A DNA stretch of 64,000 nt, taken from positions 39,800-103,799 of the forward strand of contig CACBHP010000002.1 of the NCBI GenBank assembly GCA_902539115.1. The letters are read 5' to 3'. Source of the DNA: an uncultured Prochlorococcus sp. (GTDB taxonomy: Bacteria; Cyanobacteriota; Cyanobacteriia; PCC-6307; Cyanobiaceae). The notes beneath the pieces are model-generated. The model searched no databases. It had not been told where the DNA came from and was given only the letters and a program-made list of their open reading frames with translations. Below, in pieces: positions 4,472 to 56,398 of the stretch; position 1 is the stretch's first letter; every line of letters begins with the position of its first letter. Position numbers and translations under genes: made by a program.

Positions 4472-4473
4472 CT

Positions 4474-4647: not shown

Positions 4648-4796
4648 TATTCAATCATTAATTAATAATTTAACTTTTTTTGAATAGATGTCTAGTTTTT
4701 TTGAGAATTTTTAATTTATTAAGTGGAAAAAATTTCTAATACACAATTAGAATTTCTTTTTACTAGATTTGCTATGTAGATTCTAAATTAGTTACT

Positions 4797-5444: not shown

Positions 5445-5464
5445 TTGAATTGAATTAAAAAACT

Positions 5465-5495
5465 CTATGAAAAAGTTATCAACTATTTTTCATAG
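5465..5495 (+). terminator. Perfect inverted repeat, possible terminator
   Basis: CTATGAAAAA and TTTTTCATAG form a perfect 10-bp stem around an 11-base loop just downstream of the methyltransferase-like gene. The T-run is inside the 3' arm and not after it, so intrinsic termination is possible but not typical. Confidence 0.3.
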
Positions 5496-5542
5496 CCATA
5501 CTCTTAAATTTTTACTAGTATTGGATAGTTAAAATAAATCAT

Positions 5543-5788
5543 ATGGGTTCTAAAAGAGAAAAATATCCTGAAAAATGTCCTTGGGATCTTGGTCCAAATC
5601 AACATTTAGCAAAAGAAGAGAACTGGACTTTAAGATTAGGAGAAGCAAATGTATGCTTTAGCAAAAATAAATTAGATAATAATTATTTTCACGTAATTAG
5701 TAATGAAAATGAAGAGCAAATTCTAGCTTTTAGAGCAAGACTCCTTTATCAAAAACTTCTTGATAAAGGGTTTAGATTGGTTGAATAA
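5543..5788 (+). CDS. Conserved hypothetical protein (81 aa)
   Basis: A soluble 81-residue protein, MGSKREKYPEKCPWDLGPNQHLAKEENWTLRLG..., with no signal peptide or membrane segment. The composition is balanced and unlike a chance AT-rich frame, and the C-terminal helix (QILAFRARLLYQKLLDKGFRLVE) is well formed. It resembles short conserved proteins of marine picocyanobacteria, but I cannot assign a function. It converges with the DUF3386 gene with only 4 bases between stops. Confidence 0.7.
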   Translation: MGSKREKYPEKCPWDLGPNQHLAKEENWTLRLGEANVCFSKNKLDNNYFHVISNENEEQILAFRARLLYQKLLDKGFRLVE

Positions 5789-39363: not shown

Positions 39364-40545
39364 TTAAATTCTTGATTTAAAGCTATTAATAAACTTTCTT
39401 GATAAGTTTGACCAATTTCTTTCATTTGCATATCTAAAAGCCATTTCAATTTTATCAGTATAGTATTCCTCTTTTTTTTCTAAAATTTTTTTTATAGAAG
39501 AAAATACATTTTTTGAATCTTCAGGTATAAAATATTCAGCTAAATTTTCTTCTTTAGCAAGTCGGCCCATTTCAGAAACATTTGATACTAATGCAAGTTT
39601 GGAATGTGAAAAAGCTCCTTTCATTAATGGTCCTGAACCTCCACTGTAATGGGATAAGTAAGGAAGAATTGCGAAGTCAGCTTTCTGATAAACACAACTT
39701 ATTAATTCAAAGGGCACATATGAATTATGAATTACTACATTTTTTGAGGCACCTTCCAATATTTTTCTTGAAAGTTTTTCCTCATCATGCCCAACTATCC
39801 ATAAATAAGGGTCATCTGGTTTATTAAAAAATTCATTCCAAACAGATGTTATAAAAAGATGGCCTTTATCTTTTCTGAGATTTCCAAATAAAAGGAATAT
39901 TTTTTTATTGTATTTAGGGTAATTTATTGATTCTTTTTCAAAATTATAAATCAATTCTTTTTCGGAAAATTTTCTAATAATTCCTCCACCTCCGTCCTCA
40001 ATAACTATTATTTTTTCTTTTTTGAAAGATAGTTGTTTTGAAAGTAAATTTTTATGCCATTGCCCTAAACAGCTAATTTTTATATCAAATAGATTTAATG
40101 AAAATTTGAAAATAAAAGATTGAATAAACTTTAAAATCCTAAAAAAGTTTATTCCTTGATTATGAAAATTATATTCAAAATTAGGTGCGTTTACTTGAAC
40201 AGTTATCTTGCCTTTCCATCTCAATATTTTTAAAATAATTAATAAAAATGAAACGCAAGAATATTCACAATCTAATATTATTAATCTGTTATAGTTTTTT
40301 CTTAAATAAACAAATCGAAGAATAGTTATAAAACACAAAGATAAATAAAGAATCAGACCTTTAATAGAGTAAATATTAAAATTTAAATTTGATGTATTTT
40401 CTTTATCTAAATATCTATAAACTTTTGCAGCAGAAATGATATTTACTTTATATTTAAAGTTTCTTAATTCATTAAATAAAGATTTTGTATAAACGTAATA
40501 ATGACCTTTTCTAAAGGGAGTAGGTTGAATAATAGCTATTTTCAA
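39364..40545 (-). CDS. GT4-like family glycosyltransferase
   Basis: The 393-residue protein has a GT-B layout: MKIAIIQPTPFRKGHYYVYTKSLFNELR at the start, a hydrophobic stretch at about 60-120, and a C-terminal nucleotide-binding domain with LLFGNLRKDKGHLFITSVWNEF, WIVGHDEEKLSRKILEG and YLSHYSGGSGPLMKGAFSHSKLALVSN. The GGSGP segment replaces the usual Glu-rich EX7E segment, so it is a divergent member. It is probably bound to the inner membrane. Confidence 0.8.
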   Translation of the reverse strand: MKIAIIQPTPFRKGHYYVYTKSLFNELRNFKYKVNIISAAKVYRYLDKENTSNLNFNIYSIKGLILYLSLCFITILRFVYLRKNYNRLIILDCEYSCVSFLLIILKILRWKGKITVQVNAPNFEYNFHNQGINFFRILKFIQSFIFKFSLNLFDIKISCLGQWHKNLLSKQLSFKKEKIIVIEDGGGGIIRKFSEKELIYNFEKESINYPKYNKKIFLLFGNLRKDKGHLFITSVWNEFFNKPDDPYLWIVGHDEEKLSRKILEGASKNVVIHNSYVPFELISCVYQKADFAILPYLSHYSGGSGPLMKGAFSHSKLALVSNVSEMGRLAKEENLAEYFIPEDSKNVFSSIKKILEKKEEYYTDKIEMAFRYANERNWSNLSRKFINSFKSRI

Positions 40546-40657
40546 TTTAAAAATGGATTTTTTACATCTGAAGAAATTCTGAGAAAATGTGTTTGATAAA
40601 TCAAAACTAAATATCCTTGGTAAATCTTGAATTATTATTTTTATAAATTAACATAAT

Positions 40658-41899
40658 TTATTCCCAAATATCTAATTGAAAGTAATTTAGATTTTTTTCT
40701 TTGATAATTTTCTTCACCATTTTCAATTTACTTTGATCCCTACTACAGTTGAATAATAAAATATCACCAATCACTTTTGAGTTTAAATTAAATTCTTCTA
40801 AGCCTAAATCTTTATTATTATTTAAAACATCGGGATCAAAGTAGAAAATTTTATAATTTTTTGAAAGTTTTAGAGATATTAAATAAGATTGTGATTCTTC
40901 TAATAAATAACTTCCATCTTTATAAGTCAATCCTACAACTACTACATTCTCTAATTTCTTATTAATACAAAATTGATCAATTTTTTTTACATAGTAATCA
41001 GGCAATTTACTGTTGAAAGTCTCATTCTGAATTGGCAAATAATATTCTAATCCTTCTGCTCTATTAATAACTTGCTGAATTGCTCTATTGTCTCTAGGGA
41101 AACAAGGGCCTCCAAAACCTAAACCTTTATTTAAATACTTTTTACCAATCCTACTATCGGAACCAATTGCAGAAAGAACATCTTTTGAAGAGCAATTTTC
41201 AATATTATCGGAAGCTATTCCTATAGCGTTAGCAAAACTAATTTTTGAGGTTATATATGAATTTATAGAGATTTTTGCCATTTCAGCACTTTCTATACTC
41301 ATTCTTCTTATTGGAATATTTTTATTTTTTATTACTGTCATCATTGCCTCAATATGGATATCTGCAGAGTGTGGAATATCTTCACCAACCAAAAGAAAAT
41401 CAGGATTTTTTAAATCATTTAATACTGAACCTAAAGCAATGAATTCGGGAGAATAACAAAATTTAATTTTTGAAATTTTTTCATTTTTTAATCTTATTTT
41501 AGAAATCAATTTCAACCTAGTATCTCCTGGTAAAACAGTCGAGGTTATTACAATTAACTTATTTTCACAAGAAGAATCAACATCACTTATGTTTAAAATT
41601 ACATTCTCTAAATATTTAGTATCAAAAGTACCATCCTTCAAAGAAGGTGTTGGCACTATTACATAAATTACATCGGATTGCTCTATAACTTGTGATGTAT
41701 TATCTAAAATTTTAAAATTTTCAAAACCTAGATTTATTTCACCTTGCAAGCCTGTTTCTAAAACTGGAGCAATCTTTTTACGTAAATCATTTCTTACATT
41801 TTTATCTATATCAAAACCAAATACATTATTTCCAGCTGCAGCAAAAGCAGCAAACATCGAGCAACCTAACTTACCTAATCCAATAACACCTATATTCAT
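40658..41899 (-). CDS. Nucleotide-sugar dehydrogenase (UDP-glucose/GDP-mannose family)
   Basis: The 413-residue protein has the three-domain dehydrogenase layout: MNIGVIGLGKLGCSMFAAFAAAGNNVFGFDID, a VPTP loop, YSPEFIALGSV, the catalytic Cys in GLGFGGPCFPRDNRAI, and the Lys in EMAKISINSYITSKISFAN. The C-terminal UDP-binding loop is unusual: GLTYKDGSYLLEESQS lacks the common TDDxR. This marks a subgroup whose substrate may differ from UDP-glucose. It is separate from the eukaryote-like enzyme at 56.4 kb. Confidence 0.87.
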   Translation of the reverse strand: MNIGVIGLGKLGCSMFAAFAAAGNNVFGFDIDKNVRNDLRKKIAPVLETGLQGEINLGFENFKILDNTSQVIEQSDVIYVIVPTPSLKDGTFDTKYLENVILNISDVDSSCENKLIVITSTVLPGDTRLKLISKIRLKNEKISKIKFCYSPEFIALGSVLNDLKNPDFLLVGEDIPHSADIHIEAMMTVIKNKNIPIRRMSIESAEMAKISINSYITSKISFANAIGIASDNIENCSSKDVLSAIGSDSRIGKKYLNKGLGFGGPCFPRDNRAIQQVINRAEGLEYYLPIQNETFNSKLPDYYVKKIDQFCINKKLENVVVVGLTYKDGSYLLEESQSYLISLKLSKNYKIFYFDPDVLNNNKDLGLEEFNLNSKVIGDILLFNCSRDQSKLKMVKKIIKEKNLNYFQLDIWE

Positions 41900-41925
41900 A
41901 AAATTAAATTGTCATGTTAAAAAAA

Positions 41926-43254
41926 TTATCTTATTGGATTTGCTCCCTCTCTCCTAGAGACAAGACGTATTGTTCTAAAAAAAATTAACAAATCTAACCA
42001 AAAAGAAAAGTTTTTGATGTAAAAAAAATCATAAGTCAATTTTATCTCTGAATCGTCAATTGAAGATCCATAAGGATAATTAACTTGAGCCCAACCACTT
42101 AAACCAGGCTTAACTAGATATCTTAAGTCATAAAAGGGAATTACTTTCTTTAAATTTGAATCAATCTCAGGTCTTTCTGGTCTGGGACCTATCAAACTCA
42201 TGTCTCCTATAAGAACTGAATACAATTGAGGAAGCTCATCAATTCTTGAAGGTCTAAGAAATTTACCAATTTGAGTTATCCTAATATCGTTCTTTTTTGA
42301 CCATTGAACGCCATCTACCTCCGCATTTACTTTCATAGTTCTTAATTTACAAATTCTGAATTTATTGCCATTTTTCCCTACTCTATCTTGGAAATACAAT
42401 ATTGGGCCATTATCTTCTAATGATATTAATAATCCCAAAAAACACAATAATGGTAATAATAAAATAAGCATAATTAGGCTTAAGAAGATATCTGAAATCC
42501 TTTTAAGTCTTATTTGAAAACTTCTTCCTCTGCTAATGTTTGCGAATAAGTTTAACAATTCATTAGAGGAGAGGAAAACCGATGGTATTCTTTGCAAAAA
42601 AATTTCGCTCCAATTAACTATTGAAAAGATATTTTCTCCCTGAAAATATAAATTAATAATTTTTTTTTGATTTATTGGAGTGCAATCACCAAATTTTTCT
42701 ATTATTATGTTTTTGATTTTTTTATTACCAATCAAAAGTTTATCTATAGAATCTGAAAACTTTATATTAATTTTACTTAATTTTACTAGATCTAATAATT
42801 TTAAAAATGAATTATGGCTTCCAACAAATTCCCAGTTTTGTTGAAATTTAGAATTACGAATTAAAAATAGACGTAAAAAATATTGTCCTATAAAAGAAGC
42901 AAGTATATACCTCAGAAAAAAAACAAAGTTATCCCAGTAAATATAATTATCTTTAAAATCTAAAATTTTATAAAATAATAAAAAATTAAATGAAAAGTAT
43001 ATAAAAAAATTTAAACAAGATAAAAATATATTTTTTATATTTTCTAGAATATCATTCTTATTTTGGTGATATCTGCCAACTACATAACTAATTAAAAACC
43101 AAAAAAATATAATTAAAAAGTTAAATAATATTGTTGTATATCCATTTGAATAAATTTTTAAAGTAGTAAAAAAAATAGCGAAAGTAAAAATATCAAACAA
43201 AAAAGAGACTAATATGCCTTTACGTAATGCGAACCAATAAGGCGTAATTAACAT
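41926..43254 (-). CDS. Initiating sugar-phosphate transferase (WcaJ/WbaP-type polyprenyl glycosylphosphotransferase)
   Basis: The 442-residue protein has four or five N-terminal helices and a cytoplasmic C-terminal catalytic domain. Motifs are KRISDIFLSLIMLILLLPLLCFLGLLISLEDNGPILYFQDRVGKNGNKFRICKLRTM, RIDELPQLYSVLIGDMSLIGPRPERPE, and LVKPGLSGWAQVNYPYG. Such enzymes move a hexose-1-phosphate to undecaprenyl phosphate to start the repeat unit. It lies 26 bases downstream of no stop but just upstream of the dehydrogenase gene in the same group. Confidence 0.93.
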   Translation of the reverse strand: MLITPYWFALRKGILVSFLFDIFTFAIFFTTLKIYSNGYTTILFNFLIIFFWFLISYVVGRYHQNKNDILENIKNIFLSCLNFFIYFSFNFLLFYKILDFKDNYIYWDNFVFFLRYILASFIGQYFLRLFLIRNSKFQQNWEFVGSHNSFLKLLDLVKLSKINIKFSDSIDKLLIGNKKIKNIIIEKFGDCTPINQKKIINLYFQGENIFSIVNWSEIFLQRIPSVFLSSNELLNLFANISRGRSFQIRLKRISDIFLSLIMLILLLPLLCFLGLLISLEDNGPILYFQDRVGKNGNKFRICKLRTMKVNAEVDGVQWSKKNDIRITQIGKFLRPSRIDELPQLYSVLIGDMSLIGPRPERPEIDSNLKKVIPFYDLRYLVKPGLSGWAQVNYPYGSSIDDSEIKLTYDFFYIKNFSFWLDLLIFFRTIRLVSRREGANPIR

Positions 43255-43422
43255 GAGTTATGGTATATCAAGATAAATTATTAATTTATGATATCTTAAA
43301 AAGTATATTTATCAAAACTTAAAAAAATAAAATTTTAGCGATAAATTTTTATCTTATAAACTATAGATAAAACCTTTAAATCTATATTGGATAATCTTTA
43401 TATATTATTTTTTTAAAAAGTA

Positions 43423-44505
43423 TCATGTTTTATTAAAAAGATCTGAATACAAATTTAAGAATTTGATTGCCCTATCTTTATAAGAGTGACAATTAATTGC
43501 TCTTAGATTGCCTTTTTTCTGTATCTTAGTTCTTTCTATTGGGTTGTTTAAATAATAAATAATTTTGTTTACCCAAATATTTGGGTCATCGGAATCAATA
43601 TGTATTACTTCTTCTTGATTAAAATATGGAGATGTATTCAATGGTGAATCAACTAATTGAAATCCACCATAGTAAGGAATTTTAAAATAGCGTAAATTAT
43701 AGATGATATGTTCTGGTGTATTTTCATGAAAATTAATACAGATCTTACTATTTCTATATATTAATATTTCTCTTTCATTACTTATAACTTCATTCAATTT
43801 TTTCATTTTTTTATTTACAAAAAAATTAAGTTTTTTTGAAACCGGCTTAATAAATTTATTTGAAAATTTTATTATTCCATTTGATATCCTAACTCTTTTA
43901 TTGAATCCTCTGCCAAACAAACCTATTTTAAGATTTGGATTTTTTTTTCTTAAAAGTGGCAAAACATTATTAAATAAAAATGATTTACTTTTCATTTTTG
44001 ATCCAATAAAAACTAGGTCAAAATTATTTTTGTGCTTATCTTCACTTTTAATTTTTATACTATTTTTAGGTAAACCTGGAGAGGCATTGGGAATTGTTAT
44101 GTATTTTCTTTTTGTTAATTCCTCAAATTTTTTCATTGAAATAGATTCCCTTTCTCCATAAATTATTTGAAATGAATTAAGATTATTTATTATAAGTTTT
44201 TTATGAAATTCATAAAATTTTGAATCATTATATATAGGCCAATGAACCCATAAAGCGATAATTAATCCTTTTTTGGAAAGAAATTTTGCATGATTTAAAA
44301 CAGATTTTGATTTATAATTTGAGAGATCATCTATTATAAATATCTTTTCATTACCATTATTAATTTTTTTAATATTATCAACTATTTTACAATTAAGATT
44401 TAATTCTAAAAATCCGTTCATCAATCCTAAAGAAATATGCGATTCTGCGGATTGAACATCAATATTAGGCCTTATAATATAAATTTTTTCAGGAAATGTA
44501 TTCAT
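43423..44505 (-). CDS. CgeB-like glycosyltransferase
   Basis: The 360-residue protein lacks strong N-terminal motifs but has a C-terminal pattern typical of CgeB/Glyco_trans_1_2 proteins: ICINFHENTPEHIIYNLRYFKIPYYGGFQLVDSPLNTSPYFNQEEVIHIDSDDPNIWVNKIIYYLNNPIERTKIQKKG, followed by CHSYKDRAIKFLNLY. A GT-B glycosyltransferase is the best guess. It starts right upstream of its neighbour: the ABC exporter stop (44508) lies 2 bases from this start, so they form an operon. Confidence 0.72.
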   Translation of the reverse strand: MNTFPEKIYIIRPNIDVQSAESHISLGLMNGFLELNLNCKIVDNIKKINNGNEKIFIIDDLSNYKSKSVLNHAKFLSKKGLIIALWVHWPIYNDSKFYEFHKKLIINNLNSFQIIYGERESISMKKFEELTKRKYITIPNASPGLPKNSIKIKSEDKHKNNFDLVFIGSKMKSKSFLFNNVLPLLRKKNPNLKIGLFGRGFNKRVRISNGIIKFSNKFIKPVSKKLNFFVNKKMKKLNEVISNEREILIYRNSKICINFHENTPEHIIYNLRYFKIPYYGGFQLVDSPLNTSPYFNQEEVIHIDSDDPNIWVNKIIYYLNNPIERTKIQKKGNLRAINCHSYKDRAIKFLNLYSDLFNKT

Positions 44506-44507
44506 TT

Positions 44508-46172
44508 TTATTTTAATTTAAACCTCATGGGGAATAAATTAGATTGTACTTCCGAATGAGTAATAACAATAACAATTGAATTTTTGGTTTTTGATAACAG
44601 TAAATCATTAAAAATCATTGATGTTTTTAGATCGAGTGATGATGAAGGTTCATCTAATATTATGATTGGTTTTACACTTGAAATGATTTTTAAAAGGGAT
44701 ATTCTTTGGGCTTGACCACCTGAGATATTCCTTCCAAAGTCAGAAATCATATAATCAAGAAACTGGCTGCCAAATTCTTCTTTTAAACCTAATTTAATAC
44801 CATTTTCATACAATTCCTGCTTATTAATTAATTCATTACTCCCAAACAATATATTTTCATATAAGGAGCCAGTAAATAAAAAAGGCGATTGTGATAGATA
44901 AGAAATATTTTTGTAAAAATATCTATTAGGTATATTTTTTGTATTAAAATTATTTAATTCTATCTCTCCTGCAGAAGGTTTAAGAAGTTTAAGAATTAAT
45001 TCTACTAAAGTTGTTTTACCAGAACCGCTTTTACCTAAAATAGCTGTGGGCTGTCCCTCTACAAATTGCCAATCATCATAAATTATCTCATGTTTATCCT
45101 TGTATTGATATCTTAAATCCTTTATTTTAATTTTATTTTTTTCATTTTTATATAAAAAATCATCTTTTATTATTTCGTTTACAAAATAATTTGATAATTT
45201 TTTGGTTTTCTTTGTTTTTAGACTAAATAAAAATATAAGATTATTTATTGAAAGTGAAGAGGATTTAATAAAAGCATATGCGGAATAAGTCTGTTGTGAA
45301 GCAGGAAGAATCCTATTAAATGCAAAAAGCAAAGTTCCTAATTGCCCAAAAATTAATAAACTGGAATTATTAGAAATTGAAATAATAATAAAAAAGGTAA
45401 ATAAACATAAACAAACTGTTTCAACTATATATCTTGGCGATTGAGAATAAATCAAAGTATTTGCATAACTATTCCTTGATTTAATCTCGTTATAAATGAA
45501 TTTTTTAATCTGTTTTTCCGATGATCCTCCTATTATTAAATCAACAATTGAAGCTAAAGTTGATCTCACTAAAGCTGCTTGTTCGTGATTATACTTAGTA
45601 ATATTTTCACCATTTATTTTTAATTTCTTAGCGAATAAAAGAATAATAATTAAATAAACTAAAGAAATAAATAATCCTGAAATTAAGAATAGTTTTGTTT
45701 CTAGAAATAAGAGCGAAAAAGATATAGATATCAAAATTATTGTATTAGATATTAAACTTGCAAAGTTTGATAAAGCTTCAGAATTTCTTGGCACATCTTG
45801 AATTAGAATAGATAAAAATTTTGATTGATTTGCTGACTTTAAAAAAATATATTCCTGATTAATAATCTTTTGAAATGCAAAAGAAGATATTTTAGCGCTA
45901 ATGGAAGCTGCTATACGATATTGAGTAAATAATAAAAATACCCTTAAAACACCACATATAATTACAGTAAACAAAAACTTAGAAGCATATTCAAAATTAT
46001 TTTCAAGATCAACTCTATTATCAATTGATGAGAAGGATTGAATGAATGGTTTTATTGAAGAAAGCACAAATACTTCGCTCAAGCTGAGCAACAACGCGCT
46101 TAGAATAATTAAGCAGCTATAAAAAACATATTTTCTCGGAAGAAAAAGAATTAATCTTATCAAAGGGATCAT
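44508..46172 (-). CDS. ABC transporter, fused permease and ATPase (MsbA-like)
   Basis: The 554-residue half-transporter has about six helices (1-310) followed by an ATPase: Walker A LGKSGSGKTTLVEL, Q-loop YLSQSPFLFTGSLYENILFG, signature NISGGQAQRISLL, Walker B PIIILDEPSSSLD and the switch His in ITHSEV. It works as a homodimer, probably exporting a lipid-linked sugar or lipid. It is divergent from the heptose operon across 160 bases. Confidence 0.93.
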   Translation of the reverse strand: MIPLIRLILFLPRKYVFYSCLIILSALLLSLSEVFVLSSIKPFIQSFSSIDNRVDLENNFEYASKFLFTVIICGVLRVFLLFTQYRIAASISAKISSFAFQKIINQEYIFLKSANQSKFLSILIQDVPRNSEALSNFASLISNTIILISISFSLLFLETKLFLISGLFISLVYLIIILLFAKKLKINGENITKYNHEQAALVRSTLASIVDLIIGGSSEKQIKKFIYNEIKSRNSYANTLIYSQSPRYIVETVCLCLFTFFIIISISNNSSLLIFGQLGTLLFAFNRILPASQQTYSAYAFIKSSSLSINNLIFLFSLKTKKTKKLSNYFVNEIIKDDFLYKNEKNKIKIKDLRYQYKDKHEIIYDDWQFVEGQPTAILGKSGSGKTTLVELILKLLKPSAGEIELNNFNTKNIPNRYFYKNISYLSQSPFLFTGSLYENILFGSNELINKQELYENGIKLGLKEEFGSQFLDYMISDFGRNISGGQAQRISLLKIISSVKPIIILDEPSSSLDLKTSMIFNDLLLSKTKNSIVIVITHSEVQSNLFPMRFKLK

Positions 46173-46332: not shown

Positions 46333-46950
46333 ATGTTTAAGAAATATAAGAATTCTTTAGATATTGCGCTTAGTACCATCAAGCAAGAAAATTTAAATAT
46401 TTTATTTTCAGAAATAAAAAAAAGGTTAAATGGATCTTCATCTATTCATATTCTTGGAAATGGTGGTAGCGCTGCAAATGCAAGTCATATAGTTGGTGAC
46501 TACACAAAAACTTTTGCATATATGAAATTAAAGCTCAAAATTTTTAATCATTCTGATAACATCAGTTATTTAACTGCAGCTTCAAATGACCTAGACTTTA
46601 ACGAAATATATTCAAGTCTTGTTGGAACTCTAATAGATAAAGAAGATTTAATAATTTATCTTTCTGGAAGTGGTAATTCACTCAATCTCATTAAGTGTGC
46701 CAATAAAGCTAAAAAACTTAATATCTTTCAAATTTCTATTTCTGGTTACAACGGTGGGAAAATTAAAGATCTAGTAAATACTCCTATTCATATAGATTAT
46801 CCTGATATGGAAATAAGCGAAGATTGTCAATTAATTATTTTTCATTACATTAAGCAACAACTAGTTAAGGAGATTGAAGGGAAAGATCCATATGCTGAAA
46901 ATAAATTGCCAAAATACAAAAAAAGAGTGATAGAGGATCTTATTGCATGA
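46333..46950 (+). CDS. gmhA: Sedoheptulose-7-phosphate isomerase, GmhA-like (SIS domain)
   Basis: The 205-residue SIS-domain protein matches GmhA, which makes D-glycero-D-manno-heptose 7-phosphate. Motifs are SSIHILGNGGSAANASHIVGDYTKTF, LIIYLSGSGNSLNLIKCANKAKKL and PDMEISEDCQLIIFHYIKQQL. It is the first gene of a plus-strand operon; its stop overlaps the next ATG by 4 bases. Confidence 0.88.
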   Translation: MFKKYKNSLDIALSTIKQENLNILFSEIKKRLNGSSSIHILGNGGSAANASHIVGDYTKTFAYMKLKLKIFNHSDNISYLTAASNDLDFNEIYSSLVGTLIDKEDLIIYLSGSGNSLNLIKCANKAKKLNIFQISISGYNGGKIKDLVNTPIHIDYPDMEISEDCQLIIFHYIKQQLVKEIEGKDPYAENKLPKYKKRVIEDLIA

Positions 46951-47942
46951 TTATTATTTCTAGATGTCCATATAGAATTTCATTGCTTGGAGGGGGCTCA
47001 GACCTAGATTGGTTTGTAAAAGAAAATGATTATGGTATTTGTTTAGGTTATTCATTATCAAAATATACCTACACCGTAATTAACCAATTATCATCTAGAG
47101 CCAAAAGAGGAATTTTGAATTATTCGTCAAGGGAAGAATATTCTAAAATAGAAGATATCGCACATCCATTAATAAAATCTGCACTTGAAGAATTAAATTT
47201 CAATGATTTGGTTGAAATTTCTTCTTTTGGATTTGCCGCAAGAGGTTCTGGTCTTGGAGGTTCTTCTTCATTTTTACTTGCTCTTCTAAAAGGCCTTTTT
47301 AAAATAAAAAAAGAAGAATTATCTAATGATGATTTAGCTTATTTAGCTTCTGATATTGAAATAAAAAAACTAAAAAAACCCATTGGGAGGCAAGATCATT
47401 TTATTTCGTCTAGAGGTAATATATCTTGTTATAAATTCCTAAATGATAACAGCACAATACAAAAAATCAATTTAAAAATTTCACAAGAAATATTCATCAA
47501 AAAATTAGCTGAAAAACTATATTTAATTCCTTCATTTGTTTCAAGATCAGCCGATAAAGTTTTATATAAATTAAAAGAATCTTCTTCAGCAAATGATGAG
47601 TTATTAGAAATTCGAAATATTTCAGAAAAGTTTATTAACTTAAATGAGAATAGAGAGCATGTAATAGAGGAAACATTCAATAGTTGCATAAGAGATTCTT
47701 GGGAAATCAAAAAAAATATGACTGGAGTCATGTCTGGCATCCTTAATGATCAATATAAGGAGTTACAAAAATTACCTTTAAATTGGATTAGATTATTAGG
47801 TGCAGGTTCAGGCGGTTACTTTTTAATATCTACAAAATTAGACAATCAAACTACTGAAGAAGAACTGAGTAAGCTTGGCATGAAAGATTTTTTTCAGGCA
47901 TCTATGAGTCAATCAGGATTAGAAATAATACATCATTGCTAA
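46947..47942 (+). CDS. hddA: D-glycero-D-manno-heptose 7-phosphate kinase, HddA-like (GHMP kinase)
   Basis: The 331-residue GHMP kinase has the substrate motif SRCPYRISLLGGGSDLDWF, the ATP loop AARGSGLGGSSSFLLALLKG and a C-terminal motif GAGSGGYFLISTK. This mirrors HddA (HpkA) kinases that phosphorylate manno-heptose 7-phosphate at C1. Overlaps with both neighbours (4 and 7 bases) show translational coupling in the heptose operon. Confidence 0.87.
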   Translation: MIIISRCPYRISLLGGGSDLDWFVKENDYGICLGYSLSKYTYTVINQLSSRAKRGILNYSSREEYSKIEDIAHPLIKSALEELNFNDLVEISSFGFAARGSGLGGSSSFLLALLKGLFKIKKEELSNDDLAYLASDIEIKKLKKPIGRQDHFISSRGNISCYKFLNDNSTIQKINLKISQEIFIKKLAEKLYLIPSFVSRSADKVLYKLKESSSANDELLEIRNISEKFINLNENREHVIEETFNSCIRDSWEIKKNMTGVMSGILNDQYKELQKLPLNWIRLLGAGSGGYFLISTKLDNQTTEEELSKLGMKDFFQASMSQSGLEIIHHC

Positions 47943-49183
47943 TGATTGAAGATATAACAGTAGTAATTGCAATTGGAGGAGAAGGTAGTAGATTAAAAAA
48001 AATTTCTGGAGAGATACCGAAACCACTTTTCCCTATTTGTGGCATTTCAACATTAGAAAGAGCACTTAATGAATTAGATAAATATGGCTTTAAAAAAGTA
48101 ATATTATCTACTTGCTTTAGGAAAGAGTTATTTACGGATTTCATCAAGAATAACACTTTTAATTTCGATAAATTAATAATTTTTGAGGAAGAATTTCCTC
48201 TTGGAGAATGTGGCTGTTTATGGAAAATACAGGATCAACTTAGTTCCAAAACATTATTTATTAATGGAGATTTAATCTTCAGCCTTGATTTCAAAAAACT
48301 TTGTGCATTCGATAAAAATTTAAGTTCCGACATAACATTAGTTACTCATCCTTCCTCTCATCCTGAAGACTCTGATATGATTTCAGCGCCAAATGGATCT
48401 TTTGTAGAAAAGTTATTTCTCAAAAATAGAGATTATAGAGAAGATAAATTTAAACCATTATTAGGTTTTGCAGGAATTTCTTTATTCGAGACATCAATTA
48501 TCGATGAATTCAAACTTTTGAAAAATCAAAATAAGTACAACCTATTTGGGTTTCTAATTAAAAAAGCATTTGAGAATAAGAAAAAGATTTTTTCATACAA
48601 TACCTCAGAATATATTAAAGATATGGGTACTGAGAAACGATATTTAGAAGTAACTAAGGCTATAAATAAAAATATTTTAGAAATGAAAAATTATTCAAAT
48701 TCACAAAAAGCTCTTTTTATTGACAGAGATAATACACTTATAGAATGTAACATTAATAATTATATTTTATGTAAAGATGAGATTAAATTTCTAGATAAAA
48801 ATATTGAAAAACTAGCCAAATTATCAACAGGATTTTCAGTAGTTTCTATAGTCACAAATCAACCTCAAATAGCAATGAATAAATTATCTTTGGAAGAATT
48901 AGAAAGTATAAATAATTATATAATTCATTATTGCAGAGCTAAGTCGCTTTTAATAGATACAGTTGTATGGTGCCCACATCATCCTCATAAGGGATATGAT
49001 TCGGAAAATAAAATCTTAAAAACAGATTGTTTTTGTAGAAAACCAAAACCCGGCATGTTATTACAATTAGCTTACGAAAGAAATATCGATTTAAAATCAT
49101 CATTATTTGTCGGAGATTCATATGTTGATGAAGAGGCGTCAAAATCAGCCGGATGTAGTTTTATTAATATATTAAACTTATGA
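47936..49183 (+). CDS. hddC/gmhB: Fused nucleotidyltransferase and heptose-bisphosphate phosphatase (HddC-GmhB type)
   Basis: The 415-residue protein joins two enzymes. Residues about 1-235 form a sugar-nucleotide transferase (VVIAIGGEGSRLKKISGEIPKPLFPICG, LGECGCLWKIQDQL, FINGDLIF). Residues about 260-415 form a HAD phosphatase (ALFIDRDNTLIE, VSIVTNQPQIA, CRKPKPGMLLQLAYERN, FVGDSYVDEEASKSAGC) with the Cys/His zinc loop of GmhB (WCPHHPHKGY...DCFC). Together they could finish the pathway: dephosphorylate heptose 1,7-bisphosphate at C7 and add the nucleotide. Its end overlaps the next gene by 4 bases. Confidence 0.88.
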   Translation: MLMIEDITVVIAIGGEGSRLKKISGEIPKPLFPICGISTLERALNELDKYGFKKVILSTCFRKELFTDFIKNNTFNFDKLIIFEEEFPLGECGCLWKIQDQLSSKTLFINGDLIFSLDFKKLCAFDKNLSSDITLVTHPSSHPEDSDMISAPNGSFVEKLFLKNRDYREDKFKPLLGFAGISLFETSIIDEFKLLKNQNKYNLFGFLIKKAFENKKKIFSYNTSEYIKDMGTEKRYLEVTKAINKNILEMKNYSNSQKALFIDRDNTLIECNINNYILCKDEIKFLDKNIEKLAKLSTGFSVVSIVTNQPQIAMNKLSLEELESINNYIIHYCRAKSLLIDTVVWCPHHPHKGYDSENKILKTDCFCRKPKPGMLLQLAYERNIDLKSSLFVGDSYVDEEASKSAGCSFINILNL

Positions 49184-50172
49184 GCTACAGTTTTTTCGGA
49201 ACATGCTTTGAAGATAAAGAAATCCTAGTTGATTGTCTAATTTCTATGGCAAATCAGTCTATAACTCCTGATGAAATCATAATTATTGACTCAAGTAAAA
49301 ACCCTATTGATTGCAAACTTTTCGATGATATTTTTAAAAGTAAAATAACTTCAATTAAATATGAAAATATTAAACTTCCAAGAGTAGAAGCTTTGAATTA
49401 TGCAATTACTAAAGCAAATTCTGATTACTTATTAAGATTTGATTCAAGAACAAGATTTTCAAGAAATTATGCTGAAGAAGCATTAAAAATTTTGGATAAG
49501 ATAAATATCGGTGGAGTTGGAGGAAGGCAGTCTGCTTACCCTGCAAATGCATCTATAAATGCAGAAATGGCAGCCAACATAATGGATAGATCATATGTTT
49601 TTGGTAATCCTCTTTACAGAAGAAAAAACTATAGTGGGAATGTAAATTCTATTTATTTGGGTTGTTATCCCAAAGCAGTTTTAAAAGAAATTCCATTTAG
49701 AGAAGAAATAAGCCTTATTTCAGAAGATAGTCAATTATGTCAGGATATTATTGCCAAAGGATATATAATTTACATGTCAAAAAAATTACAGCTGAAATAT
49801 TTATGTAGGGGAAATATAATAAAAGTTTTAAAGCTATTCAGAAACTACGGAAGATGCAGGGCAAGAACTATCATCTCTACAAAAACAATTCATGATAAAA
49901 AAAAATATATTCTTATTTTTATTATGGTCTTAATAATACCCATTATAAACTTTCTAATTTTTAAAGAAAAAATATTTTTTTCGATACTTTTTATACTTAT
50001 AGTTCCCCTTTCATATAATATTTTTCATGAAATTAAAGATTATGGCTTCAAAAAAATTTTTTATATGCCTTTTTTAGGCCTAATTGCACAATTAAATTGG
50101 TGCCTCGGTCTGATTGAGACCTTTATATTTTTCAAATATATAAAAAGTAATAAATCTAACTACTTGAAATAA
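49180..50172 (+). CDS. GT2 glycosyltransferase with C-terminal membrane helices
   Basis: The 330-residue protein has an N-terminal GT-A domain (MSYSFFGTCFEDKEILVDCLISMANQSITPDEIIIIDSS, DYLLRFDSRTRFSRNYAEEAL, EEISLISEDSQLCQDIIAKGY) in which FDSR replaces a plain DxD. Two to three helices follow (LIFIMVLIIPIINFLIF, ILFILIVPLSY). The layout is like ExoA succinoglycan enzymes. As the last gene of the heptose operon, a heptosyl transfer role is an attractive inference. Confidence 0.82.
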   Translation: MSYSFFGTCFEDKEILVDCLISMANQSITPDEIIIIDSSKNPIDCKLFDDIFKSKITSIKYENIKLPRVEALNYAITKANSDYLLRFDSRTRFSRNYAEEALKILDKINIGGVGGRQSAYPANASINAEMAANIMDRSYVFGNPLYRRKNYSGNVNSIYLGCYPKAVLKEIPFREEISLISEDSQLCQDIIAKGYIIYMSKKLQLKYLCRGNIIKVLKLFRNYGRCRARTIISTKTIHDKKKYILIFIMVLIIPIINFLIFKEKIFFSILFILIVPLSYNIFHEIKDYGFKKIFYMPFLGLIAQLNWCLGLIETFIFFKYIKSNKSNYLK

Positions 50173-50231: not shown

Positions 50232-51083
50232 TTATTTAATAATTTCTGCACACATAAAGTAGCCTATTTTCTCTTCACCACCGAGTAATAAAGAGAGAAA
50301 TTTTGCAATCACCCTTATTAAAGGCCTAAGAAATCTGGGATATTTTCTTAAGATATAGAAAAAATCTCTATAAAGTTTTAAATTAACCAAACTAAAACCA
50401 ACTGACTCTATTAATTCTTGAAAATCATTTTTTGAGAGAATAAGTGTTCCAGGAGATTCAATATTTTCAGAAATAATCTCTGCTCTTGTTCTTTTAAAAT
50501 TAAATTCCTTTATGGAGTAATAGAGCCAATAAACAAAAACTATCAAGGAGTCTTTGTTATAAACCATTATTTTTGACCTACCACCGTTTTTTAAAACTCT
50601 ATATATTTCTTCTAAAGACTTCTTTAAATTTCCTGAATGATGAATTACACCCCAACTATAAACAAAATCAAAAAAATTATCTTCATAATCTAAATTAGTT
50701 GAAGAACCAACCTTCAAATTAGTATTTTTCAGGCCATATAACTTTAGTCTACGTGCAGTAACATCATAAGAAACTTCTGAAAGATCAGTACCAAAATAAT
50801 TTTTTGAATACTTTGCCAATAAAACAGCATCCGATCCTAAACCAAAACCAACTTCAAGAACATTTAAACCCTTTAATAAATTAAAGTCAGTAAATTTTAA
50901 TATCTCGGGTTCGTTTGAATAACGCAAATAAGAGTTTCTATTAAACTCCTCTAAATTGATTTGATTAGGATTTTTGCAGTTTATTCCTGGACCAAAAAAC
51001 CATTCTTCACATGGATTATTTACCCAATAATCTTTAATTGATTTAAGGTTTTCCTTATAGTTATTTATATTATTTATAATCAT
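50232..51083 (-). CDS. Class I SAM-dependent methyltransferase
   Basis: The 283-residue protein has motif I NVLEVGFGLGSDAVLLAKYSKNYFGTDLSE, motif II FDFVYSWGVIHHSGNLKKSLEEIYRVLKNGG, and a basic, hydrophobic C-terminus. The start IKDYWVNNPCEEWFFGPG is similar to that of the plus-strand methyltransferase at 53.7 kb, so the two are paralogues. It probably methylates a sugar or lipid-linked sugar of the glycan. Confidence 0.87.
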   Translation of the reverse strand: MIINNINNYKENLKSIKDYWVNNPCEEWFFGPGINCKNPNQINLEEFNRNSYLRYSNEPEILKFTDFNLLKGLNVLEVGFGLGSDAVLLAKYSKNYFGTDLSEVSYDVTARRLKLYGLKNTNLKVGSSTNLDYEDNFFDFVYSWGVIHHSGNLKKSLEEIYRVLKNGGRSKIMVYNKDSLIVFVYWLYYSIKEFNFKRTRAEIISENIESPGTLILSKNDFQELIESVGFSLVNLKLYRDFFYILRKYPRFLRPLIRVIAKFLSLLLGGEEKIGYFMCAEIIK

Positions 51084-51239
51084 AATTAATCTAAGTTAAA
51101 TTAAAATTATTGAATTATAAAGTATAAAACCTTAATTAATCATCTTATCTTAATGCCACTAAGTCATTTATAGATTATTAATAAAAAGGTCGCATATTTT
51201 TTTAATATTAAGATTAATTCTGAATTATTGAATCAAATT

Positions 51240-52292
51240 TCAATATCCTTCAGGATTAAGCTGCTTCCATCTCCAGCCATCTCTACACATATCTTCAATA
51301 GTTCGTTTGGGGATTATTTTAAATTTTGATTTTAGTAAAGAATTATCTGCAATTACACTGCAAGCATCTCCAGCCCTTCTTTTTGAAAATACAGAAGGAA
51401 CCTTTATACCATTAGTTCTTTCAAATATATTGATTAATTCCAAAACAGATGTACCTAATCCTGTTCCTACATTTAGATTAAAGTATGTAGACTTTTCCTT
51501 AATTAAATATTCTAAGACCTTAATATGAGTCTCTGCCAGATCCATAACATGTATATAGTCTCTCACTGGAGTCCCATCTTTAGTCGGCCAATCATTACCG
51601 TATATTTTGAATGTTTTTTGTTCACCAATTGCTGTATTAATAATTAAAGGAAAAATATTGTTAGGTAAACCTTTTGGATTTTCACCAATTAAGCCAGATT
51701 TATGAGCTCCAATAGGATTAAAGTATCTTAAAGAAGCAAATTTCCAACTCTTTTTTGAAGATTGATATAAATCTTCTAAAAATTTTTCAATAACAAACTT
51801 AGTGTTTCCATATGGGTTTACAGGTTTGATTTTTGCATTTTCATTAAAGAAACTATTTTCTTTACTATCATAAATAGTTGCACTACTGCTATATACAAGA
51901 TTTAAGCATTCATATTTTTCCATTATTTCTAATAAATTAATTGTCCCTAAAACATTTTTTTTCCAATAAAGTTGAGGATTTAAAATTGATTCAGATACTG
52001 ATTTTAAACCTGCCAAATGTATTACTCCATAAATTTCTTTATTACATTTTTTCATATTTAAAAAAACATTTTCAATAAAAGTTCTATCACAAATATCTCC
52101 ATTAAAAATCTCTAATTTATTAGCTAAATAATTATCTTTTTTTAAAAAAATATCCAAAACCCTTTTAAGAGAATTTACTGAACTGTTTTCAAAAGAGTCA
52201 ATAACAATAACTTCATATCCCTCGTCTAATAAAACTAAACATATATGACTTCCTATGAAACCTGCACCTCCAGTAATCAAAATTGTTTTCAT
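51240..52292 (-). CDS. galE: UDP-glucose 4-epimerase
   Basis: The 350-residue protein matches GalE closely: TGGAGFIGSHICLVLLDEGYEVIVIDSFENSS, HLAGLKSVSESILNPQLYWKKNVLGTINLLE, YSSSATIYDS, NPYGNTKFVIEKFL (catalytic Tyr-Lys), SLRYFNPIGAHKSGLIGENPKG, and GNDWPTKDGTPVRDYIHVMDLAETH. It interconverts UDP-glucose and UDP-galactose. Position 51084-51239 upstream of the stop holds no visible gene. Confidence 0.96.
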   Translation of the reverse strand: MKTILITGGAGFIGSHICLVLLDEGYEVIVIDSFENSSVNSLKRVLDIFLKKDNYLANKLEIFNGDICDRTFIENVFLNMKKCNKEIYGVIHLAGLKSVSESILNPQLYWKKNVLGTINLLEIMEKYECLNLVYSSSATIYDSKENSFFNENAKIKPVNPYGNTKFVIEKFLEDLYQSSKKSWKFASLRYFNPIGAHKSGLIGENPKGLPNNIFPLIINTAIGEQKTFKIYGNDWPTKDGTPVRDYIHVMDLAETHIKVLEYLIKEKSTYFNLNVGTGLGTSVLELINIFERTNGIKVPSVFSKRRAGDACSVIADNSLLKSKFKIIPKRTIEDMCRDGWRWKQLNPEGY

Positions 52293-52346
52293 AAAGTTCT
52301 GAAATTAGAAAAAGTTAAATTGAATTTTTTATCCTAATGATTAATA

Positions 52347-53459
52347 TTAATTATTTTTTTTTTTTAGAAATTCAATAGATTTTTCTAATATTATTTTACT
52401 TGCATTTCCATCTCCATAAGGGTTTGGAACACAAGACATTTTATTATAGATTTTGTCATTATTAATTAATTCATTAACAAACTTTGTAATTTTAGATTTA
52501 TCACATCCTACTAATTTTGCACAATTTGATTCAATACTTTCTATTCTTTCTGTTTTGTTTCTTAAAATCAAAACAGGCTTATTAAAGGATGGAGCTTCTT
52601 CCTGAATTCCTCCGGAATCAGTCAAAATAAGCCTACTTTTTTTCATTACAGAAAGTAAGCTTATATAATCTAATGGCTCAGAAAGAATTACCTGACTATT
52701 GTTTAGAAACTCTTTTAAAAAAGGTTCTCTTACGATTTTATTAGGATGAAGAGGAATAAAAAAAATCACATCTTGATTAATACTTATAATTTCCTTAATG
52801 GCGAGTATCACTTTTTGTAAATTTTCGCCCCAATTCTCCCTTCGATGAACAGTTAAAAGGATTAATTTTTTATCATCAAGATTCTTCAATTTTATAATTC
52901 TTCGAAGTTTTCCAGAAATTTGGCATAAAGCATCGACAACAGTATTACCAGTAACATGTATCTCTCCTGTGATACCTGATTTAAGTAAATTATTCTTAGC
53001 ATTATCTGTTGGAGCGAAATTCAATTCTGCTATTTGCGATATAAATCTTCTATTTGCCTCCTCAGGAAAAGGTTCCTTTATAGAATCAGTTCTCAATCCT
53101 GCCTCTACATGAGCAACTGGAATTTTTTGATAAAAAGCAGCAAGGGAAGATGCGAATGCAGTTGTTGTATCTCCCTGAACAAATACCATATCAGGAAAGT
53201 TTTCGGTAAATTCTATCTCTAATTTTTTAATTACTAATTGTGTAATTGCACCTAAAGTTTGGCCTTGTTTCAAAATTTGCAAATCATCATCTATTTTTAT
53301 TTCGAATAATTCAACTACATTGTGGACTATTGACGAATGTTGCCCAGTAAGAATAACTCTTGATTTAAAATAATTAGAAAGAGAAAAAATTTTTATTAAT
53401 GGACAAAGTTTTATTGCCTCTGGTCTTGTTCCAATAATAAATGTGACATTCCAAACCAT
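52347..53459 (-). CDS. wecB: Non-hydrolysing UDP-N-acetylglucosamine 2-epimerase
   Basis: The 370-residue protein has the WecB hallmarks: IIGTRPEAIKLCPLI, LTGQHSSIVHNVVELF, VFVQGDTTTAFASSLAAFYQKIPVAHVEAGLRT, PFPEEANRRFISQIAELNFAPT, LTVHRRENWGENL, and LTDSGGIQEEAPSFNKPVLILR. It makes UDP-ManNAc, which the WecC-like dehydrogenase at the window end can oxidise. Confidence 0.96.
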   Translation of the reverse strand: MVWNVTFIIGTRPEAIKLCPLIKIFSLSNYFKSRVILTGQHSSIVHNVVELFEIKIDDDLQILKQGQTLGAITQLVIKKLEIEFTENFPDMVFVQGDTTTAFASSLAAFYQKIPVAHVEAGLRTDSIKEPFPEEANRRFISQIAELNFAPTDNAKNNLLKSGITGEIHVTGNTVVDALCQISGKLRRIIKLKNLDDKKLILLTVHRRENWGENLQKVILAIKEIISINQDVIFFIPLHPNKIVREPFLKEFLNNSQVILSEPLDYISLLSVMKKSRLILTDSGGIQEEAPSFNKPVLILRNKTERIESIESNCAKLVGCDKSKITKFVNELINNDKIYNKMSCVPNPYGDGNASKIILEKSIEFLKKKNN

Positions 53460-53678
53460 ATTTAAATCAACCCAAAAAAGAGGTAATAGTTAATTTATAT
53501 TTTATTACTTATACAATTAGAAAAACTATAAATCAAAAACAAACTAATATTTGTTATTTTTTTTTCAAATATTTATAAATAAATATTCAGAACGTTTTCA
53601 AAATTTTAAGTAATCAGGTTGTTAAGGATCATCATTACATATTCATAGCTATTATTAATAAAAATTTGTTTAATTTAA

Positions 53679-54557
53679 GTGGCAAATCTGAGCTCCCTAG
53701 AAGATGTTCGTAATTATTGGAATAAAGATAATATTCCTCAAGTATGGTATTCAAAGAAAAAACCACTTTCTTATCAATGGTTTAATGAAATAGGTTATAA
53801 AAGATTTTCAACATACTATCCTTATTTAAAAGATGAGGCGGAATTTCAATGGCATAGTGGGGAGGATATTCTTGAGATAGGCTGCGGTCTTGGTACTGAT
53901 TTAAAAGAGTATGCCAAATATGGTGCAAATGTTCATGGAATTGATCTTGGACATGATCAAATACAACTAACAAAATTAAATTTTGAATTATCTGATTTAA
54001 AATACAAATATTTAGATCAAGGGAATGCCGAATCACTCCAATTTCCAGACAATTCATTTGACTTGGTTTATTCCTTTGGTGTTCTTCATCACACACCAAA
54101 TACAGAAAAAGCAATCTCTGAAGTTTTTAGAGTTTTAAAGCCAGATGGTATAGCTATAATTATGCTTTACGCAAGAGGCTGGAAACATTATATAAAAAGA
54201 TGCCTTATTCAAGGATTAATAAAGGGAAGATTTTTTGCAAATAAATGCAATTGGCAGGCAGTTTACAACGAGATAAGCGAAGTTAATGGTAATAGTCCAA
54301 AAACTGGAGTTTATAGGAGAAGCCATATTAAAAAAATGTTTAAACAATTTAAAGACGTTGAGATCAAAAAAAAGAGGATGGGAGAGTTTTTTGAATATGC
54401 ACCCTATCAATCCTACAAATTCCCTGAAGTTGTAAATAATATTTCTCAAACACTTAATCTTGAAGCTTTTTTAGGGGAAAATTGGCTAATCAAAGCTAAA
54501 AAAACAGAGAAACTAGAACGAAAAGATATTTTTAATGTCATTTTTAATAACTATTAA
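53679..54557 (+). CDS. Class I SAM-dependent methyltransferase
   Basis: The 292-residue protein starts at GTG (MANLSSLEDVRNYWNKDNIPQVWYS). Motif I is DILEIGCGLGTDLKEYAKYGANVHGIDLGHDQIQLTKL; the post-I region is NSFDLVYSFGVLHHTPNTEKAISEVFRVLKPDG. It resembles the minus-strand methyltransferase at 50.2 kb in sequence and in its start. No other evidence narrows the acceptor. It has its own 219-base upstream gap. Confidence 0.87.
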   Translation: MANLSSLEDVRNYWNKDNIPQVWYSKKKPLSYQWFNEIGYKRFSTYYPYLKDEAEFQWHSGEDILEIGCGLGTDLKEYAKYGANVHGIDLGHDQIQLTKLNFELSDLKYKYLDQGNAESLQFPDNSFDLVYSFGVLHHTPNTEKAISEVFRVLKPDGIAIIMLYARGWKHYIKRCLIQGLIKGRFFANKCNWQAVYNEISEVNGNSPKTGVYRRSHIKKMFKQFKDVEIKKKRMGEFFEYAPYQSYKFPEVVNNISQTLNLEAFLGENWLIKAKKTEKLERKDIFNVIFNNY

Positions 54558-54654
54558 AACTTTCATACAGAAAAATATGCAGGAAAAATTATTAAATAAA
54601 GGAGAAAAAATTTTTTAAGTTTAAAAATTATTTAATGAAAATTAAATATATTTT

Positions 54655-55059
54655 TTGTTTTTTAAATATGTTTTTCTATTGGTAGGTTCTTATAAAAATG
54701 AATTTGATTTTAACTTTTTAGTTACTTCAGCAAAACCATTAGAGCATATAGGTCTTGATAGTAGTGATGTTTGCTTATCAAAAGATAGAAAAATAATTCT
54801 TAAAGAATTATGCAAAAGAATCTTGCCTAAATCATTTTATATAAAAAGAGAAAAAGACTTATTATTCCTATTTCTGTTTTTTTAAAAAAGTTCTTTTTAT
54901 AATTAATTTTGGGCTATCCTGAGAACTAGCGATACTTTACTTAATAGTAAATTTATAAAATCATTACTAATTAAGGCAAAGGGTTCAAAGATGCTGCAAA
55001 GACTATTTGTTTTAGCAAATTTAAAATTATAGGGGAAAAACTATAACTACTATTTATAA
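54655..55059 (+). pseudogene. Asparagine synthase (AsnB-like) C-terminal remnant
   Basis: The 555-base gap between two genes holds a decayed stretch. The track ORF at 54655 has LEHIGLDSSDVCLSKDRKIILKELCKRILPKSFYIKREKD, the pattern just before the C-terminal end of AsnB (usually KxxLRxAxxxxLPxxIxxRxKxGF). A shift of frame then reads IPISVFLKKFFL, which AsnB shows next. After more stops comes LLNSKFIKSLLIKAKGSKMLQRLFVLANLKL, then TAG where AsnB has Trp. This looks like a broken 3' end with the 5' part gone. No intact asnB is seen here. Confidence 0.62.
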
Positions 55060-55113
55060 TTCCTAATTAAATAAAATTTAAAATCTTTTTTATATTTTCT
55101 TTAAATATTGTTT

Positions 55114-56199
55114 TTAAAAATTTAAAATTGCTTGAAAAATTTTTTCTGAATATTTTATTGAAGAAAAAGGGCAAATCTCTGATAATTTTTTTTTAGTAAA
55201 AGAATTTTCTTTACATATTTGTACTGCTTTTAAAAAAGCTTTTTTGAAAGATCCTGGATTACTAGGATTATACTTTACTAAATTTGTTCCTTCGGTAAGT
55301 ACCTCAGTAGAATCATCATATATAGAAGAAATAATAAATAAACCTGCACTAGAAGCTTCAGAAAGAATTCTTGAGAAAGGATCAGCCCAAGTGGAATGTA
55401 GAAATAAAGCTCCTTCCTGAAATATCTCCCTAAGGGCGAATTCGTCAGATTTGCCTAAAAAAGATATATTTTCATAAGGTTTTATTTTGTTAACTATATC
55501 TAACTCTAGTGGCCCAAAACCAGTTATTTTAAGATCAATCTTAGATAATATATCCTTATCAGAAATAATCTCATTTAATAATTCTAAAAGACCTTTCCTT
55601 GGTATAAATTTACCTGCCCATACACATTTAACTTTTTTACCTGTTTCAATAATCAAATTATCATTTACCAAAAGTTTGAAAAATGAAGTATCAGAAGAAT
55701 TTATTCCCGTAAATATTTTTTCTTGAGGGTAACCTAGATTTTTGTAAAATTGAGTACTCAATTTGCCATAAGTAACTATTGATGCAAGTTTTGAAATAAA
55801 AAATTTCTTCAAAAATTTATAAAAAAAGGTATCGTTTACTGTCGATTTACTACTGGCTCCTAACCAACCTACCATCCTTAAACCCTTAATACTGCCCAAT
55901 AGTAGAGAAATCCAGCACTCAAAATGCCCATAACCTCCTATTAATAAAATATCATTATTTTTTAGAAATAATATCTTAATTATAATTTGTACAAAAGTTT
56001 TCCATCTATACTCATATTTAAATAAGTTATATTCACTAATTATTTTTTCATTTAGGTTCTCAACTTTATAAGTTGGATTAAATTCAATAAATCTAAATTT
56101 AAAATCCTTTTTTTTAAGCTTTCTTGCCAAATCAATTAACAAACTATGCCTACTAAATTCTGGAGAAATTGACTGGCTTATAAATAAAACCCTCTTCAT
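55114..56199 (-). CDS. GT4 family glycosyltransferase
   Basis: The 361-residue protein begins MKRVLFISQSISPEFSRHSLLIDLARKLKKK. The C-terminal GT-B domain has CVWAGKFIPRKGLLELLNEI, ITGFGPLELDIVNKI, ENISFLGKSDEF, ALREIFQEGALFLHSTWADPFSRILSEASSAGLFIISS and the typical E..E spacing. It stands between the AsnB remnant and ugd, with about 200 bases of spacer on its 5' side that hold nothing I can name. Confidence 0.85.
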   Translation of the reverse strand: MKRVLFISQSISPEFSRHSLLIDLARKLKKKDFKFRFIEFNPTYKVENLNEKIISEYNLFKYEYRWKTFVQIIIKILFLKNNDILLIGGYGHFECWISLLLGSIKGLRMVGWLGASSKSTVNDTFFYKFLKKFFISKLASIVTYGKLSTQFYKNLGYPQEKIFTGINSSDTSFFKLLVNDNLIIETGKKVKCVWAGKFIPRKGLLELLNEIISDKDILSKIDLKITGFGPLELDIVNKIKPYENISFLGKSDEFALREIFQEGALFLHSTWADPFSRILSEASSAGLFIISSIYDDSTEVLTEGTNLVKYNPSNPGSFKKAFLKAVQICKENSFTKKKLSEICPFSSIKYSEKIFQAILNF

Positions 56200-56398
56200 A
56201 GATTTTTACTATTTTGATAATTAAAATTTTTTTTATTATTAAATTATAAAGGATTGATAAAATAAGATTAAGTTATTATTGAAAATTTTGAAGATTCAAA
56301 ATCTATTAATTAGAAAAAATAGTAAAAGTATTTTATGTATTTATTTGTGATAATTACTTAAAAATACAATACAATATACAAAAGAAAAATTTTTTGAA

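Follow-up and report, generated by a model that had tools for sequence, protein, structure and literature searches.

A probable heptose operon

Which sugar is made by four overlapping genes within a surface-glycan cluster of Prochlorococcus, and by which route? The genes lie at 46333-50172 of a 64,000-nucleotide stretch (the window) of contig CACBHP010000002.1 of an uncultured Prochlorococcus sp. The source assembly is 1.1 Mb and 70% complete, and the nearest named relatives are the Prochlorococcus single-cell genomes AG-686-M10 (90%) and AG-347-J14 (68%). From sequence comparison it is probable, in our view, that the cassette is a self-contained route from sedoheptulose-7-phosphate to a nucleoside diphosphate (NDP)-alpha-heptose that is attached to surface polysaccharide. 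New here are the class of the isomerase and the complete fused layout in Prochlorococcus. The four genes, of which the first three are called the module below, are:

46333..46950, + strand: SIS-domain isomerase, GmhA-like, with H52/D56/E163/H171 (open reading frame (ORF), Pfam, alignment, Foldseek, model)
46947..47942, + strand: HddA/WcbL-type GHMP kinase, predicted to phosphorylate heptose-7-phosphate at its anomeric C1 (alpha) (Pfam, PDB matches, residue conservation)
47942..49183, + strand: predicted fusion of a sugar-1-phosphate nucleotidyltransferase (NTase, HddC/GMP-like) and a HAD-IIIA GmhB-like 7-phosphatase (ATG start; TTG at 47936 as the alternative)
49180..50172, + strand: glycosyltransferase of family GT2 with hydrophobic segments at its C-terminal end, probably the cognate transferase (Pfam, co-occurrence)

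The ORF check found the genes co-directional and overlapping, and SIS_2, GHMP_kinases_N, NTP_transferase and Glycos_transf_2 all exceed their curated Pfam cut-offs. The four-gene operon described in a first-pass annotation of this DNA is thus borne out in its frames, order and domains. Of the overlaps given there (4, 7 and 4 bases), both 4-base ones are correct, isomerase/kinase (ATGA) and fusion/GT2, but the 7-base overlap is probably 1 base. The longer one follows from the TTG start at 47936 and the shorter from an in-frame ATG at 47942 (TAATG), which is probably the start of the fusion because the relative in L038/L004 begins with ATG at the homologous place.

Kinase and fusion protein

The PDB matches of the kinase are HddA and WcbL only, with no fucokinase. 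In WcbL, mutation of R13, D22, S118-120, Q162 and D163 abolishes activity (PMC4691232), and these residues correspond to R10, D19, S106-108, Q149 and D150 of the kinase. R10, D19, S106, S108, Q149 and D150 are invariant in 17 relatives, and the serine motif 106-108 is nearly invariant. The first-pass annotation's HddA-like kinase is upheld by Pfam, the PDB matches and these essential residues, and the enzyme is predicted to act on C1 of heptose-7-phosphate to give the alpha anomer.

The fusion protein has 413 residues, 1-250 being the NTase part and 251-413 the HAD part. PF00483 (NTP_transferase) spans residues 8-243 of 413 with 52 bits, and the HAD half (256-410) exceeds the cut-offs of TIGR01662 (HAD-SF-IIIA, 82.3 bits against 44.6) and TIGR01656 (91.2 against 84.15) and has a CPHH...CFC zinc-loop motif. 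The NTase motifs GGxGxR, PKPL, NGD and D227 are conserved, and its catalytic residues G12, G13, G15, R17, K27, D110 and D227 are kept in 17/17 relatives. The same is true of D261, D263, N306, C344, H346, C363, C365, K367, D392 and D396, the catalytic and zinc residues of the HAD half, where the DxDxT and CxH..CxC motifs are invariant. The first PDB match is GmhB for the HAD half and HddC for the NTase half. The model of the fusion has a pLDDT (predicted local distance difference test) of 84 with both domains fairly confident, and Foldseek returned GDP-mannose and HddC enzymes for the NTase part, the HddC structures 6jq8 and 5xhw being among the top matches.

The profile searches of both halves, with NTP_transferase in one, HAD-IIIA and the zinc loop in the other and heptose families nearest, agree with the HddC-GmhB fusion proposed earlier, and it is a fusion in a single frame. 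It had to be rejected as a distinguishing novelty, however, because NTase-HAD fusions are found in many phyla: in Chlorobi, Bacteroidota, Rickettsiales, Bacillota, Levybacteria, Nitrospina and one Pelagibacteraceae cell, and also in gut contigs filed as phage. At L089:4462-6384 and similar Bacteroidota loci the NTase-HAD proteins have about 620 residues, and the L089 protein carries a third, C-terminal domain that matches phosphoribulokinase/uridine kinase (PF00485, 46 bits).

Among the profiles, the NTase half scores higher on the mannose-1-phosphate guanylyltransferase model (82.5 bits) than on the HddC equivalog, and because of this nearest model GDP may tentatively be named the likeliest nucleotide. 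The same score could point to a hexose pathway (fucose, mannose or similar) assembled from related domains. We consider this very improbable, as the pairing of an anomeric kinase with a distal phosphatase makes sense for sugars whose far end is phosphorylated from the start, and the kinase and HAD half have the PDB matches described above. Those of the kinase also disfavour a fucose or lipoteichoic acid (LTA) reading.

GmhA- and GmhB-like domains are shared with the ADP-beta-heptose (HldE) route to the core of lipopolysaccharide (LPS), but there is hardly any chance that the operon belongs to that route. Its kinase is of the GHMP and not the PfkB type, and the HldE NTase (cytidylyltransferase-like) domain was absent from 9/9 module genomes. 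The GT9 heptosyltransferase (PF01075) was absent from 8/8 near-complete ones, with only a 30-residue stretch in G000; positive controls were detected in both searches. As the HldE domain and GT9 are absent, the ADP-beta route was rejected, and of the two known routes only the alpha, HddA-type appears to fit. The complete route claimed by the first-pass annotation stands in so far as each enzymatic step of the HddA-type NDP-heptose pathway is represented in one operon by domains nearest to heptose families.

The isomerase

The zinc ligands of GmhA, H64, E68, Q175 and H183 in Burkholderia pseudomallei numbering, are fully conserved among orthologues; mutation of any of the four reduces activity, and Q175E keeps the substrate in a pre-reaction pose (PMC5705639). 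In the alignment, H52, D56, E163 and H171 of the window isomerase stand at these H/E/Q/H positions, so that E->D and Q->E are swapped together, and the letters are identical in all module relatives. The characterised GmhA enzymes of alpha-route organisms (B. pseudomallei, M. tuberculosis) are E/Q.

Like canonical GmhA (E. coli, B. pseudomallei, M. tuberculosis), the window isomerase has the SIS_2 fold (PF13580, 46.9 bits, cut-off 27), the two histidine ligands and the GNGGS motif. The best Foldseek match of its model (pLDDT 88) is N. gonorrhoeae GmhA 5i01 (E 6e-11, template modelling (TM) score 0.73-0.81). It differs in the two exchanged ligands, in a GSG instead of a TSG loop and in an extra, conserved C-terminal tail (K..KR...DLIA). 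It also lies outside the GmhA clade of the tree, which holds all E/Q proteins (E. coli GmhA and 8 other H/E/Q/H proteins) at 100/99. The earlier description as GmhA-like is therefore correct as to resemblance (SIS_2, Foldseek) but not as to membership, in view of the zinc ligands, the equivalog score and the clade. On this evidence the isomerase is assigned to a GmhA-related SIS class in which D/E replaces the E/Q metal-ligand pair.

The D/E pair is present in every Prochlorococcus module and in cassettes of Bacteroidota, Chlorobi, Bacillota, Levybacteria and Thermoflexus. A separate group of marine members of the same family has it as well, as do two phages (the ligands only). D/E-class proteins nearly always have an SGSG loop where GmhA has STSG, and in several from Bacteroidota the last ligand histidine is aligned with Asn. 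No characterised D/E-class isomerase was found among the PDB matches or in the literature retrieved, mostly openly readable papers, and no characterised enzyme of this kind, among those that could be checked, shares the predicted metal site.

It is conceivable, though unlikely, that the D/E class yields another aldose phosphate, such as gluco-heptose-7-phosphate or, by analogy with lincosamide biosynthesis, the phosphate of an octose, and that the sugar is not D-glycero-D-manno-heptose. Two of four metal ligands and the STSG->SGSG loop have changed in concert in nearly all D/E-class proteins, the kinase and NTase are distant from characterised HddA and HddC while canonical cassettes coexist in the genus, and GDP-octose has a precedent in the lincomycin pathway (PMC12945683). 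In that case the D/E-class protein would be a distinct isomerase making another aldoheptose or octose phosphate, and the cassette a second NDP-heptose pathway with its own GT2, parallel to that of GDP-manno-heptose, which we regard as doubtful. Such a pathway, with equally modest probability, would be common to Prochlorococcus, Bacteroidota, Chlorobi and others. On the other side, the essential kinase residues are kept, and in the tree of the fusion protein the partner SIS switches at least three times from one class to the other (canonical GmhA or D/E), and the same fusion lineage has canonical GmhA as its partner at three or more places. Therefore the kinase and fusion appear to work with either class, and this favours a D/E class that delivers the same intermediate as GmhA, the predicted aldoheptose-7-phosphate.

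A few related loci have other arrangements. On a Pelagibacteraceae single-cell contig (L138:4462-5676) a fused NTase-HAD accompanies a D/E-class SIS. The unfused cassette of L162 contains a third type of SIS (L162:5254-5889; GVGGSAGNASH, VGGGSRERN loop), whose ligand positions read H/D/E/H. In L163, L164 and L165, from the same family or genus, a D/E-class SIS stands beside unfused NTase and HAD genes, with no GHMP kinase found in the vicinity. The L165 locus has an FAD oxidoreductase-like gene (4443-5666) in between, and its HAD is without zinc-loop cysteines.

Distribution and recombination

The module is a conserved accessory cassette of the genus. Over 266 genomes, 87 of them near-complete, the kinase profile gave 20 scores of 441-506 bits and then a clean gap to the next at 208. 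The gene-neighbour comparison that had been proposed with the first-pass annotation showed SIS, kinase and fusion in the same order in 20/20 module genomes, the fusion always in one open frame, with proteins 36-97% identical per gene across the genus. A chance arrangement is thereby excluded. The module also occurs in another genus of the same family (L167). Any HddA-like kinase at all was found in 42/266 genomes (17/87 near-complete), and some of these, L055 and L057, have canonical-looking unfused GDP-heptose cassettes (HddA 370 bits, HddC 216, GmhA 177, GmhB_yaeD above its cut-off). Judged by these profiles, the genus holds at least two kinds of heptose cassette, the window module being the divergent kind.

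The window's copy of the module is a mosaic. The SIS gene and those upstream of it are closest to G172 (AG-347-J14): identity to this genome is 90-95% within the SIS gene, up to about 46950, and mostly 60-80% beyond it. From the kinase to the methyltransferase the closest genome is G066 (AG-686-M10), to which the identity is 75-81% for the SIS gene and mostly 84-95% for the stretch that follows. This places a putative recombination breakpoint at the SIS-kinase border, window 46950, and isomerase alleles therefore appear exchangeable between lineages.

The glycosyltransferase

Relatives of the GT2 were counted at E <= 1e-25 in the 266 genomes. They were found in 12, all beside a SIS-GHMP-NTase-HAD cassette, and in 11 of the 12 beside this module, where the GT2 sits directly or within about 1 kb behind it; the twelfth (G165) has it behind an independent SIS-GHMP-NTase-HAD set (L162). 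The co-occurrence with the module (P = 2e-13, hypergeometric) is overstated, as related genomes are not independent. Since the GT2 is restricted to cassette-bearing genomes, it is probably the cognate heptosyltransferase of the activated sugar.

Points against the heptose reading

Several observations weigh against a heptose route. The curated equivalogs are not reached by any of the enzymes: the window isomerase has 89.4 bits on TIGR00441 (GmhA) with a cut-off of 209.45 (the best E-value among 16 module SIS proteins being 8.9e-27), the kinase 62 bits on NF049969 (HddA), its best model, with a cut-off of 600, and the NTase half 54.5 on HddC, cut-off 300. The HAD half likewise misses the GmhB equivalogs PRK08942 (105, cut-off 178) and GmhB_yaeD (87, cut-off 150). 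The canonical cassettes of the genus score far above the module on these families, although their HddA relatives (370 bits) also fall short of NF049969. Some branches behind the class-switch argument are long, nearly half of the module genomes have other genes at the GT2 position, and linkage alone could account for part of the GT2 co-occurrence. Nor are we aware of glycan chemistry from a module-bearing strain.

Proposed pathway and its surroundings

Sedoheptulose-7-phosphate is a Calvin-cycle intermediate and at hand in a phototroph. In the proposed heptose route, the SIS enzyme would convert this ketose phosphate into an aldoheptose-7-phosphate, of presumed manno stereochemistry, and the GHMP kinase would phosphorylate it at C1 as the alpha anomer. 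The HAD half would remove the 7-phosphate and the NTase half load the nucleotide, most likely GMP from GTP; with both in one polypeptide, the 1-phosphate may pass between two active sites. The GT2 would then attach the sugar to the product of the surrounding cluster, a predicted surface glycan. The cluster contains an initiating sugar transferase, UDP-sugar dehydrogenases, epimerases, glycosyltransferases and an ABC transporter:

39364..44505, - strand: GT1, UDP-glucose/GDP-mannose dehydrogenase, Bac_transf initiating sugar transferase, GT-like (domain matches)
44508..46172, - strand: ABC transporter (MsbA/PglK-like), divergently transcribed, glycan export context (profile matches)
50232..57841: methyltransferases, NAD-dependent epimerase, UDP-GlcNAc 2-epimerase, GT1, second UDP-sugar dehydrogenase

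Known systems and phages

The known heptose systems of Aneurinibacillus, Campylobacter jejuni and the B. pseudomallei capsule have the same four enzymatic steps, with an HddA-type GHMP kinase, an HddC-like NTase and a GmhB-like HAD, and they too are located in surface-polysaccharide clusters. The module differs from them in its fused NTase and phosphatase, the phosphatase within the operon (that of C. jejuni lies elsewhere; PMC10680097), the other SIS class, and scores far below the curated families. NTase-HAD cassettes of Bacteroidota and Chlorobi (e.g. L082, L089) have the same three genes with a D/E-class SIS and a fused NTase-HAD, but in the order fusion-kinase-SIS and with many proteins of about 620 residues.

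An HddA-like kinase also adjoins a D/E-type SIS, annotated as phosphoheptose isomerase, in Caulobacter phage Cr30 (L160) and Synechococcus phage SynMITS9220M01 (L161). Their SIS and kinase are only 26-32% identical to those of the window, however, and no fusion was found in either record. A scan of viral contigs with the fusion gave matches to the HAD half only, and a cyanophage origin of the module was rejected.

Heptose has been reported in the LPS of Spirulina. The first-pass annotation had heptose absent from marine cyanobacterial LPS, which agrees with reports for marine Synechococcus (PMC4515613). Its conclusion that a full route is unexpected holds only in part, given the HddA-like kinases and canonical cassettes of the genus and a reported cyanophage with heptose genes (PMC7378029).

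Significance

The D/E isomerase poses the biochemical question of what happens when two of the four GmhA metal ligands are exchanged together, and it may correspond in nature to the Q175E mutant, in which the substrate stays in its pre-reaction state. The linked GT2 is a concrete candidate for a heptosyltransferase outside GT9. If the heptose reading is true, about one in thirteen Prochlorococcus species genomes would channel sugar from the Calvin cycle into a surface glycan that bears heptose; the LPS of relatives of this lineage reportedly contains none. In these hosts, surface glycans are candidates for phage receptors.

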